From assembly GCA_001281695.1 (NCBI GenBank), contig LJIE01000001.1:192107-256106 (forward strand): a stretch of DNA of 64,000 nucleotides, given 5' to 3'. Position numbers and translations under genes: made by a program. Each line of letters starts with the position of its first letter. Within the stretch, counting starts at the first letter, position 1. Under the pieces are notes generated by a model. The model had not been told where the DNA came from. It made no database searches and saw only the letters and a program-made list of their open reading frames with translations. Below, piece after piece: positions 27,524-37,085 of this stretch. The stretch comes from a bacterium 336/3. GTDB lineage: Bacteria > Bacteroidota > Bacteroidia > Cytophagales > Thermonemataceae.

Positions 27524-27544
27524 GAAAAGCTTTACAAATACTTG

Positions 27545-27577
27545 AAGATACGCACAAAAATGCGTATCTTTTTATTT
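27545..27577 (+). terminator. Terminator of metH
   Basis: AGATACGCA (27545-27553) pairs with TGCGTATCT (27561-27569), followed by a T-rich run. It is 22 bases after metH and only about 16 bases before the next start codon. Confidence 0.88.
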
Positions 27578-27592
27578 TAAAAACATATTTCG

Positions 27593-28624
27593 ATGGATAT
27601 TTATAATGAAGAAACTGTACAAGTATTAACATCCGTAGAACATATTAGAAAAAGACCTGGGATGTATATTGGTTGTATTGATAGAAGTGGTATATTGAAT
27701 ATATTCCGAGAAATTTTAGAGAATTCATTAGAGAATAAAAATTGGTGTACTGTCCAAATACTCATCAATAAAGATAGTTATAAAATAAAGTTTGACACTT
27801 GTTGGTTTGAACCTATTAAAATTCAAAATCTATATCTTCATATAAATCTTATTCCAATAGGTAGTTTCTCATCTACACAATTTGGTTTTATAGTTCTAAA
27901 TGCTTTATCTACAAGTTGTGTTTTTAAGTTTCAAAAAGAAGAGTTACACTTTTCAGAAGGAAATTATATTAAAACAAAAAATAAAAACCGTTCTAATTTT
28001 ATAATAGAATTTATTCTTGATAAAAGAGTTTTCTCACTCAATACTTTACCTTATACCAATTTAATGAATATGCTTCAGGAGTTATCATTTTTAAACCCTG
28101 ACCGAAAGTTTATTGTTGAGGATAAGCAAAATAATTTTAAATCTGCTTTTCATCATCCCAAAGGAATATTAGAACATTTTTTTCATTTGACATTTGAGAA
28201 AACTTTATTATCAAGTCCTATTACTATTCACACAGAAAAAAATGATTATAAACTTGATATAGTTTTTGCCTATACCAATGATTTAGACAAAAAAAATAAA
28301 CCTATATATTATTCATATTCCTATGTAAACAATAATTTATGTTTTTTAGGAGGTTCTCATGAAAATGCTTTTAAAAGAGGATTAAAATCTGTTTATAAAA
28401 ATTTGAATTTAGAACATTTGAGTAACAAAAGTATAATAGTTGTAATTTACTTACAAATACCCGAAAATGAAGTTGCTTTTTCTGGTGCTACACGAAGATG
28501 TTTATACATACCTAATTTGGAATCTTGGATAAAAAAATCAGTTCTTGATTCTGTTTCAACATATTTTAGAGAAAACTTATCTGTTTTAGATGAAATAAAG
28601 ATTCCTATTTCATCTTATTATTAA
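27593..28624 (+). CDS. Degenerate GyrB/ParE N-terminal-like protein without TOPRIM domain
   Basis: A 343-residue protein. It opens with the type II topoisomerase B-subunit signature (VEHIRKRPGMYIG, residues 16-27), keeps the magnesium-ligand-like Asn44 in REILENSLE, and later aligns with the gyrase transducer domain (GGSHENAFKRGLKSVY; then IYLQIPENEVAFSGATR). The ATP site looks broken: the DxGxGIP loop is replaced by FDTCWFEP, and the glycine-rich lid that precedes VNALS is replaced by STQFGFIVLNALS. The TOPRIM and C-terminal domains are absent. It is AT-rich, follows the metH terminator with its own start, and converges on the AAA+/M41 gene with an 11-base gap. It is either a repurposed non-catalytic gyrase relative or a decaying paralogue. 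Confidence 0.75.
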   Translation: MDIYNEETVQVLTSVEHIRKRPGMYIGCIDRSGILNIFREILENSLENKNWCTVQILINKDSYKIKFDTCWFEPIKIQNLYLHINLIPIGSFSSTQFGFIVLNALSTSCVFKFQKEELHFSEGNYIKTKNKNRSNFIIEFILDKRVFSLNTLPYTNLMNMLQELSFLNPDRKFIVEDKQNNFKSAFHHPKGILEHFFHLTFEKTLLSSPITIHTEKNDYKLDIVFAYTNDLDKKNKPIYYSYSYVNNNLCFLGGSHENAFKRGLKSVYKNLNLEHLSNKSIIVVIYLQIPENEVAFSGATRRCLYIPNLESWIKKSVLDSVSTYFRENLSVLDEIKIPISSYY

Positions 28625-28635
28625 TTTTACTACCC

Positions 28636-30498
28636 TTACTCCATCATCTTCTTTTTGTATTCATAAATATGAAGGTAGCCCTCTTCACGAACTTCTACTT
28701 CTATTTTATGTTTTTTAGATATTTTGGCTATTTCAGAAGAATCTAAACTTCCTTTATTGGCAAGTTCTCTACTTATATCTTTCAGCAAATCAATATTTTG
28801 CATGAGAAGTTCATTAGTTTCAACCACTAATTGAGCTATCATTTTTTCTATCTCAGCATCTGTAACATACGAATCAAGTTTGTAAGGATAAGCCTCCAGA
28901 CTATACACAGCTTGAAACGCATCATCAAAACCGAATCTTCTGAAATAATCAGACGCTAAAACTGTTATTTGGTCTCTATCGTGGCTTCTACCGACACTGG
29001 CTTTCTGTTTTCCAAAAATAATTTCTTCAGCTATTCCACCAGCCAAGTAAATCTTGATTTTATTGATAATATTTTCTTTGGTTTCGTATATCTGATGAGG
29101 GAATGTGAAGCCACCTGCATAGCTACTGGCTATTTTACTTTTCAATTGCAATGGAGCCAATCCCATGAGTTTCATATATACAACTGCGTGTCCTGCCTCA
29201 TGTACACTGATATTGGCAACTACATCATCCAAGTTGGATTCTCTGATTTTATCAATACGTCCCACGTAAGGATATTCCGATTTAACATTGCCCACCAAAG
29301 CCTCTATTCTTTGTTCTTTTTTGTTGTAGTCAATATGGATATTTGTAAAATCGTTGATAATGGCTGTAAACACAAACTGATTCAAGCAAGATTCTAAAAT
29401 GTCAATGATGCTACTAAACACAGGGCGTACGCCTTGTACAGGAAAAACGCCATTGTTATAAATTAATTCATTCATTTTCTTGGTAATCGTAATATCAATA
29501 TTTAGCTTTTCTTTACGATCAATAATAATTTTTTGAATCTCTTTTTCAATCAAATTTTCAAAATCTATTCTTCGTAAAGAGTTGTAAATAAGGTGTATAT
29601 TACCAAAACGAGCTACTTGCTCAGGTCTAAATTTTCGAGAAAGAGCATTTTTAATGTCTACCAACGTAATTTTTTTGGTAAATGCATGGAAAATATCTGC
29701 ATCTACGTCAGCTTCGCTGGTTTGATCTGCCATTCTGAAAGCCTCATCCAAATTACCACTAATAATAATTAGCGATTTGCTATGGTTGATAGGCTCATAG
29801 ATTTTCTTTTTCTTTTTGGACTGAAGAATTAAGTCTACTACCTGCGATTCTGTGAGTTCAGTTATTTCATCATAATTAGAATCCAGACTCAAATTTTTCT
29901 TCAAGTCTTTTGCATCCCAAAGACTCACAGAACTTCCTTCTTCATACATATCTTCACCACGAGCTTTTCTGCGTTCTTTGTCTTTTTTTCTGTTCATATA
30001 ATTAAACAGAATATAGTCTAAATCCTGACGTTCCTTTCTACTCAATCTTCCATCACTTAGTAGCTCCCAAAAATCTGTAAATTTGGTTTGAGGCATAGGT
30101 CTTCCTTCTTCATCGAGCGTGTTAAAACGCTGAATTTCATCAAATAAAATAATCGAAGGTTTTTCATCATTGATTTCATAATTTTCCAAAATTTGAGCAA
30201 CACTATTGCTCCAACCACTTTGGTCTATATTACTTAATTCTATTTCTGCAAAACGATCTTGGAAATCAATAAATTTAACCATTTTCCTGATTAAATCTGT
30301 TTTTCCAACACCTGTCATTCCCCAAAGGTTTACAATAATGGGACGGTTTAAGATTTCAGGAATCAGATACCAAATTTCTATATAATTGATAAGGTCATCA
30401 ATGATGTTATCAATTCCAATAAATTCTGTTTTTAAGTATTCTTTACACTCTTCTAATTTTTTTTTCTTTGCAGCAAGCTCTTGTTTGTCTATCACCAT
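28636..30498 (-). CDS. AAA+ (Clp/Hsp100-like) ATPase fused to an M41 zinc peptidase
   Basis: A 620-residue soluble protein. The N-terminal part is a single AAA+ domain with Walker A GMTGVGKT (60-67), Walker B SIILFDE (115-121), a sensor-1-like SGNLDEAF and an arginine-finger-region FRPEQVARFGN that resembles Clp/Hsp100 D2 modules (usually FRPEFLNRID). Its inserted region (about 145-240) is long and charged. The C-terminal part is an FtsH-type metallopeptidase with HEAGH at 433-437, then YLAGGIAEEIIFGKQ and the SHDRDQIT acidic third-ligand region. FtsH itself has membrane helices and a different AAA subtype; here no membrane helix is seen. It probably unfolds and degrades cytosolic substrates; the targets are unknown. 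Confidence 0.85.
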   Translation of the reverse strand: MVIDKQELAAKKKKLEECKEYLKTEFIGIDNIIDDLINYIEIWYLIPEILNRPIIVNLWGMTGVGKTDLIRKMVKFIDFQDRFAEIELSNIDQSGWSNSVAQILENYEINDEKPSIILFDEIQRFNTLDEEGRPMPQTKFTDFWELLSDGRLSRKERQDLDYILFNYMNRKKDKERRKARGEDMYEEGSSVSLWDAKDLKKNLSLDSNYDEITELTESQVVDLILQSKKKKKIYEPINHSKSLIIISGNLDEAFRMADQTSEADVDADIFHAFTKKITLVDIKNALSRKFRPEQVARFGNIHLIYNSLRRIDFENLIEKEIQKIIIDRKEKLNIDITITKKMNELIYNNGVFPVQGVRPVFSSIIDILESCLNQFVFTAIINDFTNIHIDYNKKEQRIEALVGNVKSEYPYVGRIDKIRESNLDDVVANISVHEAGHAVVYMKLMGLAPLQLKSKIASSYAGGFTFPHQIYETKENIINKIKIYLAGGIAEEIIFGKQKASVGRSHDRDQITVLASDYFRRFGFDDAFQAVYSLEAYPYKLDSYVTDAEIEKMIAQLVVETNELLMQNIDLLKDISRELANKGSLDSSEIAKISKKHKIEVEVREEGYLHIYEYKKKMME

Positions 30499-34740: not shown

Positions 34741-35508
34741 CTATTTTTTACGTTTCTTCCTATTTTTATTAAACTCCTCATCCTTAATTACCTGATAAGG
34801 TGAAAGTATTCTATCTGACAACTCTCTAATTTGATTGCTACCCACACCTCTAAAATTGACGTCATCTAGAAATAAAGCTTTATAATTAGAGACTTCTGAT
34901 GGAGAAGGTTTTGGTAAATTCCTATTCATTACTGTTTCTAAAATAAAAAAGCCGTATTGTTGTGTGGTATCAGAAATAAATAGCCTTTTACCTTGATAAC
35001 CTGCATTTTTATTTTCATAGAGTAAATACAATTTTCCTATTTGTTTAGGTTTATTCCAAAGTCCTAAATTAATAATCTCATAATAGGCACGTGGAATAGA
35101 ATCCAAATTTTGGTAAACGATTTTATCAGTTTCTTCTGTATTTCCAGTAAAATCACGCATTCGACGAGGTAAAAAATATGGATATTTTGCTTTATTATAT
35201 TTAGCAAGTCTTCTTTCTTGTTCATCATATCTAATAGAGTCTTCATTATATTTTCTATCAAAATTGCTTTCCAATATCTTCATCTCTTCTGATATTTTTT
35301 CTTGGAAAATTGTTTTTATTTTTTGATAGCAATTCTCATAGATATATAAATTAAATTGAATACTTTTTGAATCATAAATACCCAAATATACACCAGAAAT
35401 CTCTCCCTTATCGAACATATACCTGATTGAGTCAGAAAAATTTCTTTCGCTTTTGTGATGAATCTTACAACTCATCAGAAATACAAATATAATATACAGC
35501 CATCTCAT
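34741..35508 (-). CDS. Paralogous lipoprotein of unknown function (copy 1, 255 aa)
   Basis: A lipoprotein with lipobox LMSC (Cys14). Shared with the two genes to the right are a GVYLG start module, a YYEIINLGLWNKPKQIGKLY module, LFISDTTQQYGFFILET, and a C-terminal YQVIKDEE. This copy has an added charged segment (about residues 85-115) and a basic tail (NKNRKKRKK). No known domain was recognised. The common layout suggests one ancestral gene duplicated in tandem and then strongly diverged. It is the last gene of the leftward group. Confidence 0.72.
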   Translation of the reverse strand: MRWLYIIFVFLMSCKIHHKSERNFSDSIRYMFDKGEISGVYLGIYDSKSIQFNLYIYENCYQKIKTIFQEKISEEMKILESNFDRKYNEDSIRYDEQERRLAKYNKAKYPYFLPRRMRDFTGNTEETDKIVYQNLDSIPRAYYEIINLGLWNKPKQIGKLYLLYENKNAGYQGKRLFISDTTQQYGFFILETVMNRNLPKPSPSEVSNYKALFLDDVNFRGVGSNQIRELSDRILSPYQVIKDEEFNKNRKKRKK

Positions 35509-35546
35509 AAGCCTATTGCATAATTAGTAAATATCAAATGACCTCT

Positions 35547-35573
35547 GGTGTGAGTTTGCAACTCGCATATCTT
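35547..35573. repeat. Short intergenic repeat with GAGTTTGCAACTC hairpin (copy 1)
   Basis: GTGTGAGTTTGCAA at 35549-35562 recurs exactly at 37993-38006. This copy continues to ACTCGCAT, giving a small hairpin GAGTT-TGC-AACTC. It overlaps the stop of the 35572-36234 gene by two bases. Confidence 0.5.
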
Positions 35574-36234
35574 ATTTTTTAGCTTGGTATGAGCTAATAG
35601 ACCTCATGAACTCTTCATTTTTCACTTTAGTTGTAGGGTCTTTTATTTCTTCATCTGTAATAATGCGATAGGGTACCTCTACTACGTCTTTGTAAATACC
35701 ATAAAAGCATTCAGGTTTATGTTCTTTTTCTACACAAAAACTATCAAGAGAAGAATTAACTAATTTACTTACCAAAACGCCTTCTAAATTGCTTTTATAT
35801 GATATAAAATTTTGCTTAGCTATTTGAAAATAAAAACCATTGCTTGTTGTATCAGAAGTATAAATAACTCTTTCTCCATTTTCAAAATTTAGCTTAGAAA
35901 AATATAACTTACCTAATTTTTTAGGTTTGAAAGCTGCTGATAAATTTATTATTTCATAATATATAACGCTTTTAGATTCTTTTGTTTTTTTATAATAGTC
36001 CTCACCTTTGGTAGAATATCTTGCTGACCACCAATCTTCATAGTTCTCATATCTTATGTAGTGGCAAATGGTTAGTAAAAAATATGAACTATGATATGTA
36101 CCTGCTATCTCGTAATTGCTTCCAAGATACATTCCATCATATTTAGCAGAATCTAAACTTACTGTTTTAATTTCTTCATTTTTTGCTTTATCACATCCCC
36201 ATAATAAAAGCAGTGAAAAATATAACAATTTCAT
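35572..36234 (-). CDS. Paralogous lipoprotein of unknown function (copy 2, 220 aa)
   Basis: A lipoprotein with lipobox LWGC (Cys14). It shares with its neighbours the GMYLG module, YYEIINLSAAFKPKKLGKLY, YTSDTTSNGFYFQIA and a C-terminal YRIITDEEI. Several tyrosine- and tryptophan-rich stretches (YENYEDWWSARYS) are unique to this copy. No function is recognised. The gap to copy 3 holds one copy of the double-hairpin repeat. Confidence 0.72.
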   Translation of the reverse strand: MKLLYFSLLLLWGCDKAKNEEIKTVSLDSAKYDGMYLGSNYEIAGTYHSSYFLLTICHYIRYENYEDWWSARYSTKGEDYYKKTKESKSVIYYEIINLSAAFKPKKLGKLYFSKLNFENGERVIYTSDTTSNGFYFQIAKQNFISYKSNLEGVLVSKLVNSSLDSFCVEKEHKPECFYGIYKDVVEVPYRIITDEEIKDPTTKVKNEEFMRSISSYQAKK

Positions 36235-36332
36235 ATCACTATTGCAGAATTAGGTGAAATTACACTTAGATATTCATATTTAGTGGAATTTTTAAGTATT
36301 TCTGTCCTAAGTTTTGTTTTAAGTGTGTCTGC

Positions 36333-36425
36333 TCTTTTGCCTTTGTTGGTGAAGAAGACCAACGAAAATAAACAATTCCTTGTTGGTGTTGCGTGCTAAA
36401 ACACTAATAAGAGCTAAAAAAGCTC
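36333..36425. repeat. Double-hairpin intergenic repeat, copy A
   Basis: About 88 bases nearly identical to copy B at 37177-37264, including the exact 28-base run starting ACCAACGAAAATAAACAATT. Hairpin 1 has arms TTTGTTGGT / ACCAACGAA; hairpin 2 has arms CTTGTTGGTGT / ACACTAATAAG. It is followed by GAGCT-A5-AGCTC and a CTCGCACC fragment. It fills most of the 206-base gap 36235-36440, where no gene is seen. Confidence 0.8.
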
Positions 36426-36440
36426 GCACCAGCATTTATT

Positions 36441-37085
36441 TTATTTTTTTACTTCTTCATCTAAAATAATTCGATAAACAGAGTTTGAAATTTTAGAATA
36501 TTCGCTATGACACAATTCATTTGCCTTATGTTCAGTACTTGTGATTTTTAAGGATTTTAAAGTTTTTTTTGGAATATAGCCTGATGGCATAAAAACAGGA
36601 TGGGTTTGTACAACAAACCATCCAAATTTAGAAGTTGTATCAGAAATGTAAATATCTCCACCACCTATTGCATTTTTTTCTTGTGTACCAATTGAGTATA
36701 AACGTCCAATGGTTTTATGTTTTTGCCAACTCTTTTTATCCGTAATTTCATAATAAACTACTTGCCGATTTTTCTTGTTCAAGTTATACTCTATAAGGTT
36801 ACCATTACTATCTTCTTTTGGAATAATACCTTTTTTGGTCAAAGAGTCTATATGTGTCTTTTCAATAGATAACTTTGGGTAATCAATATTTCTTGAATAA
36901 AAGCATAAATTTAATATGAAACGTTCTCCTTCATACATTCCAGAGGGATTGAATGCTCCTTTTTTTATATGATATTTAGAACTGTCTTGTACAATAATTT
37001 TAATATGGTTATGAGATATTTTTGTATCCTCTTCATGGGTACAAGCAAGAAAAACTAAGAAAACAAAACAACACAACTTTTTCAT
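36441..37085 (-). CDS. Paralogous lipoprotein of unknown function (copy 3, 214 aa)
   Basis: A lipoprotein with lipobox FLAC (Cys15). It carries the family modules GMYEGERFILNLCFYSRN, VVYYEITDKKSWQKHKTIGRLY, IYISDTTSKFGWFVVQT and a C-terminal YRIILDEEV. It is most likely exported and anchored to a membrane. It lies between copies A and B of the double-hairpin repeat, which fits duplication of a gene-plus-repeat unit. Function unknown. Confidence 0.72.
   Translation of the reverse strand: MKKLCCFVFLVFLACTHEEDTKISHNHIKIIVQDSSKYHIKKGAFNPSGMYEGERFILNLCFYSRNIDYPKLSIEKTHIDSLTKKGIIPKEDSNGNLIEYNLNKKNRQVVYYEITDKKSWQKHKTIGRLYSIGTQEKNAIGGGDIYISDTTSKFGWFVVQTHPVFMPSGYIPKKTLKSLKITSTEHKANELCHSEYSKISNSVYRIILDEEVKK

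Follow-up and report, generated by a model that had tools for sequence, protein, structure and literature searches.

The short reading frame and its surroundings

The stretch of DNA analysed here (64,000 nucleotides of contig LJIE01000001.1 from the bacterium 336/3, a member of the Bacteroidota; hereafter the window) encodes on its plus strand, at positions 27593-28624, a protein that we call P0001. P0001 has the predicted fold of the 43-kDa N-terminal fragment (GyrB43) of GyrB/ParE, the B subunits of type IIA topoisomerases, and it lacks both the ATP-site motifs and the TOPRIM half of these proteins. Its open reading frame (ORF) occupies exactly these positions and is intact, with 343 codons and no internal stop; the other five frames of the same DNA hold 21-40 stops each. 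The guanine plus cytosine (GC) content of the gene is 25% against a window mean of 32.5% (GC at first codon positions, GC1, 0.33), and few genes in the window are richer in AT. Family libraries pick up P0001 merely as a weak match to the Pfam model DNA_gyraseB (PF00204; 35.1 bits, above the cut-off of 27), and the best of the NCBIfam GyrB/ParE models gives 109 bits, far under its cut-off of 740.

Judged from alignment and predicted model, a degenerate GHKL part (residues 1-186; 27593-28150) is followed by a transducer part (residues 187-343; 28151-28621), within which the PF00204 match covers residues 201-335. The GHKL part opens with an N-terminal arm (27593-27646), where Y4 and V9 hold the positions of Y5 and I10 in E. 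coli, and continues with RKRPGMYIG (residues 19-27; 27647-27673) and with E40-I-L-E-N44 (27710-27724), whose ends correspond to the general base E42 and the Mg ligand N46 of the E. coli protein. At residues 68-93 (27794-27871) the DxGxGIP motif has been lost and the glycine-rich ATP lid deleted. The transducer part carries the motif GGSHENAFKRGLKS (residues 253-266; 28349-28390) and A299-T-R301 (28487-28495), the counterpart of the QTK loop. All of these features lie on the plus strand.

A terminator-like hairpin (27544-27571, plus strand) lies between metH and the P0001 ORF, which suggests that the two are not read out together; the region holds two terminator-like sites versus 0.4 expected from shuffles. 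Only 11 bases separate the end of P0001 from that of a convergent gene (28636-30498, minus strand), whose product of 620 amino acids carries an AAA ATPase domain together with a C-terminal M41 (FtsH-type) peptidase. With the hairpin before it and the convergent gene after it, no partner gene shares an operon with P0001. Besides P0001, the genome (4.7 Mb in 13 contigs, 99% complete) carries one complete gyrB, in a frame of 667 codons, and one complete parE-like gene of 633 codons; its contigs contain no further copy of either.

Predicted fold and ATP site of P0001

The states of the ATP site were read from an alignment with twelve full-length GyrB/ParE proteins of the phylum, one of them the GyrB of the same genome (E. 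coli numbering). Within DxGxGIP the adenine-binding D73 is replaced by F, G75 by C, G77 by F and I78 by E. From the lid (GGKFD...YKVSGGLHGVG) the residues G101, G102, K103 and Y109 are deleted, and G114 and G117 are changed to S and Q, respectively; T165 has become F, and Q335-T-K337 reads A-T-R. Retained are Y5, E42 (E40 in P0001), N46 (N44), P79, G119, RKRPGMYIG and the GGSH motif. A first-pass annotation, made from the sequence alone, had reported RKRPGMYIG, Asn44 and the transducer motif as kept and DxGxGIP and the lid as lost, and the alignment agrees on each point; the retention of the general base Glu goes beyond that account. The same annotation suggested that the protein could be non-catalytic, which the absence of the ATP pocket motifs makes likely.

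An AlphaFold2 (AF2) model of P0001 reached a mean predicted local distance difference test score (pLDDT) of 83.7 and a predicted template modelling score (pTM) of 0.81; confidence is very low only at the two ends and across residues 76-93, the stretch expected to hold the lid. Residues 3-340 of the model superpose on residues 4-377 of E. coli GyrB in 4prx (VIA Z 31.2 over 323 residues), and residues 3-343 align to 4-382 in 4pu9, so that the C-terminus falls just ahead of TOPRIM, as the first-pass annotation had placed it. Prediction over the ATP pocket, which that annotation had proposed as a check, thus gives a GyrB43 fold with a poorly defined stretch in place of the lid.

Three features define GyrB/ParE, and P0001 shares one of them. 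The GHKL and transducer fold of GyrB43 is present by the predicted model and by the match to DNA_gyraseB. The ATP-site residues are not, since D73, G77, the lid and T165 are lost and K337 is changed to R, with E42 and N46 kept; nor is the TOPRIM and C-terminal half, which binds GyrA/ParC and DNA, since the ORF stops level with residue 382 of the E. coli protein. P0001 is therefore not classed as a GyrB/ParE, despite the common head fold. In GyrB, ATP-driven closure of the N-gate depends on the lid and D73, and a GyrB lacking TOPRIM neither docks on GyrA nor cleaves DNA. We infer that P0001 makes no use of ATP, is unable to dock on GyrA via TOPRIM, and hence is not a topoisomerase subunit.

In normal gyrase the GyrB head is the drug-binding half, and a short head could in principle act as a sequestering sink for aminocoumarin-type drugs of the ATP site. 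The residues of the ATP and drug pocket are lost (D73 and G77, and T165 in most members of the family described below), and with the pocket gone we rejected this extremely improbable reading for P0001.

Among known proteins, the GyrB/ParE 43-kDa fragment matches P0001 over the whole predicted fold, in RKRPGMYIG, in the GGSH motif and in the transducer; it differs in having DxGxGIP, the ATP lid and, in the full protein, the TOPRIM half, and it shares only about 20-28% identity. Among solved structures, the one nearest in kind is 3cwv, annotated as a truncated B subunit of DNA gyrase from Myxococcus xanthus, which is likewise a short stand-alone GyrB head (Z 30.6, 313 residues). The matched ranges give it a GHKL part some 20 residues longer than that of P0001, so that it may retain the lid, and in sequence it is not closer to P0001 than other GyrB.

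Short relatives in Bacteroidota and their history

The first-pass annotation had proposed a homology search among GyrB-like proteins of about 340 residues, and this search yielded relatives: 17 further short proteins (320-366 amino acids) of the same kind in Bacteroidota, for a family of 18 members including P0001. We define the family by this length, the absence of TOPRIM, the deletion of the lid and the replacement of D73 by a hydrophobic residue, all of which are seen in P0001; identifiers beginning with G (genomes) or L (loci) also stand for the short proteins encoded there. Among 59 related genomes, true short relatives were recognized in G004, G031, G056 and G057 after reading the short frames. 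Three further candidates (G012:C124, G056:C265 and G049:C331) were rejected as full-length GyrB/ParE with intact motifs cut by contig ends. A five-member profile gave 275 bits to G011, which had been left out of it, versus at most 163 bits to full-length GyrB/ParE. Scanning the genomes of 84,980 species with a three-member alignment returned eleven loci, all in Bacteroidota; G004 and G031, already recognized above, account for two of these. The hosts include the cultured Aurantibacter aestuarii (L089) and Xanthocytophaga flavus (L092), a Mucilaginibacter, a Chitinophagaceae and a Tannerellaceae metagenome-assembled genome (L084). In this last genome a decayed fragment, apparently a second copy with an internal stop, lies about 300 bases downstream of the intact short gene (L084:6480-6600, plus strand). 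A profile search in 395 genomes of the class added G887, G930 and G931 (G972 being identical with L090), and G887 and G931 scored 326 and 266 bits against a profile built without them. The short gene occurs in 6 of 291 genomes of the order and in 4 of 394 others of the class, that is, in about 1-2% of genomes.

The relatives were reached through alignments alone, and scans of viral and genome contigs with a single sequence gave no close relative. No relative of the main clade of short proteins was found in viral contigs, and plasmid matches proved to be true GyrB. Matches to P0001 in phage collections (21-27% identity, 35% over one short fragment) were also set aside, as they fall in unannotated records that most likely carry host gyrB; small unannotated "phage" records of INPHARED (OR848231, OR846681, PQ520059, OR844989 and others) match GyrB and are probably fragments of host chromosomes. 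Pfam holds no model specific to the short members, and a weak match to CdiI (E 0.06) in one member of 14 was dismissed as chance.

Motif states were tabulated for 15 of the 18 members. D73, the G77-type glycines and the lid are lost in every one of the 15, Lys or Arg is kept at the K337 place in 13, and E42 and N46 occur together only in P0001. The arm tyrosine is present in P0001, L027, L084, L089 and L091 and missing from the other ten.

The main clade is clearly under purifying selection. Its closer pairs are 37-62% identical, with ratios of non-synonymous to synonymous change (dN/dS) of 0.13-0.34 where dS is unsaturated; most pairs are dS-saturated and show only a strong excess of silent over replacement changes. 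An AF2 model of the main clade (pLDDT 89.3) has a short helix at the former place of the lid and matches GyrB43 with Z 25.7. Weak matches of this model to GHKL proteins of the phage T4 RIIA type (BFVD, E 1e-3 to 6e-3) concern much longer proteins at TM-scores of about 0.35-0.4 and indicate at most a common superfamily. Within the clade the transducer is more conserved than the GHKL part (47% versus 34% identity, with the transducer ahead in 51 of 55 pairs). Full-length GyrB shows no such difference between the parts (66.5 and 65.3); four ParE sequences lean the same way as the main clade (81 versus 73). Constraint in the main clade bears on the transducer and on the scaffold of the GHKL part and spares the pocket. 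For the family, the relatives and these ratios run against the two outcomes that would have refuted the first-pass annotation, a lack of homologues and a decaying paralogue; P0001 itself is without a close orthologue for such a comparison. The annotation's remark that the ORF does not look like a random remnant also holds, given 343 codons without a stop, relatives of about 340 residues and a clade under purifying selection.

P0001 is about equally distant from the main clade (22%) and from GyrB (24%); its best short relative is at most 23% identical and the best full-length GyrB 28%. In a phylogenetic tree, all short proteins fall on one side of one branch (98/93), with several very long branches including L033, L027 and L093, and P0001 has the longest end branch of all (5.84). 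The simplest reading is a single origin of all short proteins; by the approximately unbiased (AU) test, placing P0001 with GyrB is not rejected (p 0.11), and placing it with ParE gives p 0.07. Tree and taxonomy are at odds: P0001 and G004/L085 both belong to the family of the window but do not group as sisters; the partner of L085, from Cytophagales, is the protein of Aurantibacter, from Flavobacteriaceae, with 62% identity. We infer horizontal transfer of the short gene. As 13 of 15 short genes are AT-richer than their surroundings (sign test p 0.007) and only about one or two genomes in a hundred carry it, the short gene has the look of an accessory one, subject to gain and loss.

The position of P0001 raises the question of whether P0001 alone could be a recently relaxed or decaying gyrB paralogue that resembles the short family by chance. 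Its longest end branch, its AT-richness, its absence from the three other species of the genus, the low identity to short relatives and the separate origin not rejected by the AU test would all suit such a gene. On the other side stand the confident predicted fold, the 13 of 17 columns conserved in at least 90% of other members that P0001 also keeps (many of them GyrB residues too), and the uninterrupted frame. When the genome's own gyrB was drifted neutrally to 28% identity in 300 simulations, indels not counted, stops arose at a mean of 19.4 and a minimum of 9, versus none in P0001. Thus selection has acted on the frame over most of its history, random decay over that time is rejected, and a recent relaxation is in our view rather unlikely. 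P0001 is probably a working non-enzymatic protein and not a wrecked gene.

The loci of the relatives show no shared neighbour. A Tpt1/KptA RNA 2'-phosphotransferase gene lies about 1.2 kb from the short gene in one of them (L088:8190-8615, plus strand), and in Xanthocytophaga flavus the defence system Hachiman (HamA, HamB) lies about 2.5 kb away (L092:524-3489, minus strand). Elsewhere in the window, three AT-rich adjoining genes (34741-37085, minus strand) encode lipoprotein-like proteins of 214-255 amino acids which by eye resemble diverged tandem copies, with a common "YYEI...IGKLY...SDTT" pattern.

Possible roles of the short GyrB-like proteins

We regard the short family as a pseudo-enzyme branch of GyrB43. 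It would descend from a type IIA topoisomerase B subunit that kept its N-terminal half (GHKL and transducer) but shed the TOPRIM half entirely, together with the adenine-binding Asp and the lid, the gene being retained sporadically across Bacteroidota as an accessory. The remaining head might still be recognized by whatever recognizes GyrB/ParE heads, among which the pentapeptide protein MfpA is a known agent (review PMC10886550). The protease toxin Cpe1 cuts GyrB and ParE at G101-G102 in LHAGGKF, its immunity protein acts by competing for the substrate-binding surface, and a Fic toxin modifies a tyrosine of the ATPase domain in the same region and so abolishes ATP hydrolysis (PMC12136450). 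Because the segment attacked by both toxins is the segment deleted in the family, and because the immunity protein works by competition, the comparison suggests a pseudosubstrate or decoy role for the short proteins. Our favoured reading is thus that the P0001 family is a non-catalytic, accessory GyrB43 pseudo-enzyme that may act as a decoy or pseudosubstrate for gyrase-targeting effectors, or as a modulator docking on gyrase or Topo IV; we put it forward tentatively, as a fair possibility that stops short of probable. A decoy or regulator of gyrase or Topo IV was also among the roles named in the first-pass annotation, and to this extent its interpretation is partly borne out as a possibility. 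A more specific form, in which mobile GyrB-head mimics of Bacteroidota serve as uncleavable and unmodifiable pseudosubstrates that soak up gyrase- or Topo IV-directed effectors or phage proteins (immunity by target mimicry), we consider unlikely.

Several observations weigh against the favoured reading. If a protease requires LHAGGKF, a decoy for it might be expected to retain this loop; moreover, Cpe1 relatives are known mainly from Pseudomonadota. The lack of a shared neighbour leaves no binding partner indicated by neighbourhood, a known defence system lies nearby at only one of 15 loci (the Hachiman locus), and none of 14 members matched a PADLOC model. Fic genes are present in 9 of 10 carriers of the short gene and in 7 of 10 non-carriers, which is no co-occurrence signal; being common with and without it, they give no pointer to a target. 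Lastly, P0001 is far from the main clade and without a close orthologue, so that arguments from the family may not carry over to it, and its separate origin was not rejected. The antitoxin-like role raised in the first-pass annotation is not supported, as P0001 has no partner gene, stands between a terminator-like hairpin and a convergent neighbour, and has no conserved neighbour.

A dominant-negative or regulatory partner would use its N-terminal arm to enter mixed N-gate dimers with GyrB or ParE and so slow strand passage. Such a modulator fits P0001 best: the arm residues Y4/V9 and RKRPGMYIG are kept, and the GyrB43 fold is predicted end to end. The arm tyrosine is absent from most relatives, and N-gate dimers of GyrB are closed by ATP in both heads, so we hold this reading, too, to be improbable. 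The dimerization scaffold of the first-pass annotation, taken as acting through this arm, is weakened for the family, in which only P0001 and four other tabulated members have the tyrosine.

An ATP-independent, DNA-binding dimer or scaffold has a model in MTOPVIB/TOPOVIBL, the meiotic Topo VIB-like proteins with a degenerate GHKL domain, to which P0001 can be likened: MTOPVIB does not bind ATP, dimerizes and works ATP-free, and binds DNA (PMC11077084). These proteins are eukaryotic, belong to the type IIB family and have SPO11 as partner, and the likeness is drawn without a sequence relation. Fourteen of the 15 members have a transducer with a net charge of zero or above, versus -8 in the genome's own GyrB, but the transducer of its ParE is about neutral too, which makes charge weak evidence, and no nuclease or other partner was found among the neighbouring genes. 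Such a scaffold seems to us quite doubtful.

In the open-access literature searched we found no description of stand-alone ATP-dead GyrB heads. To our knowledge, a family of such heads would be an undescribed bacterial counterpart of the degenerate meiotic Topo VIB-like proteins. Gyrase heads are the targets of toxins, antibiotics and DNA-mimic proteins, and if P0001 does bind gyrase or gyrase-directed effectors, as the favoured reading of a decoy or modulator would have it, it would represent a new means of control or protection of an essential drug target.
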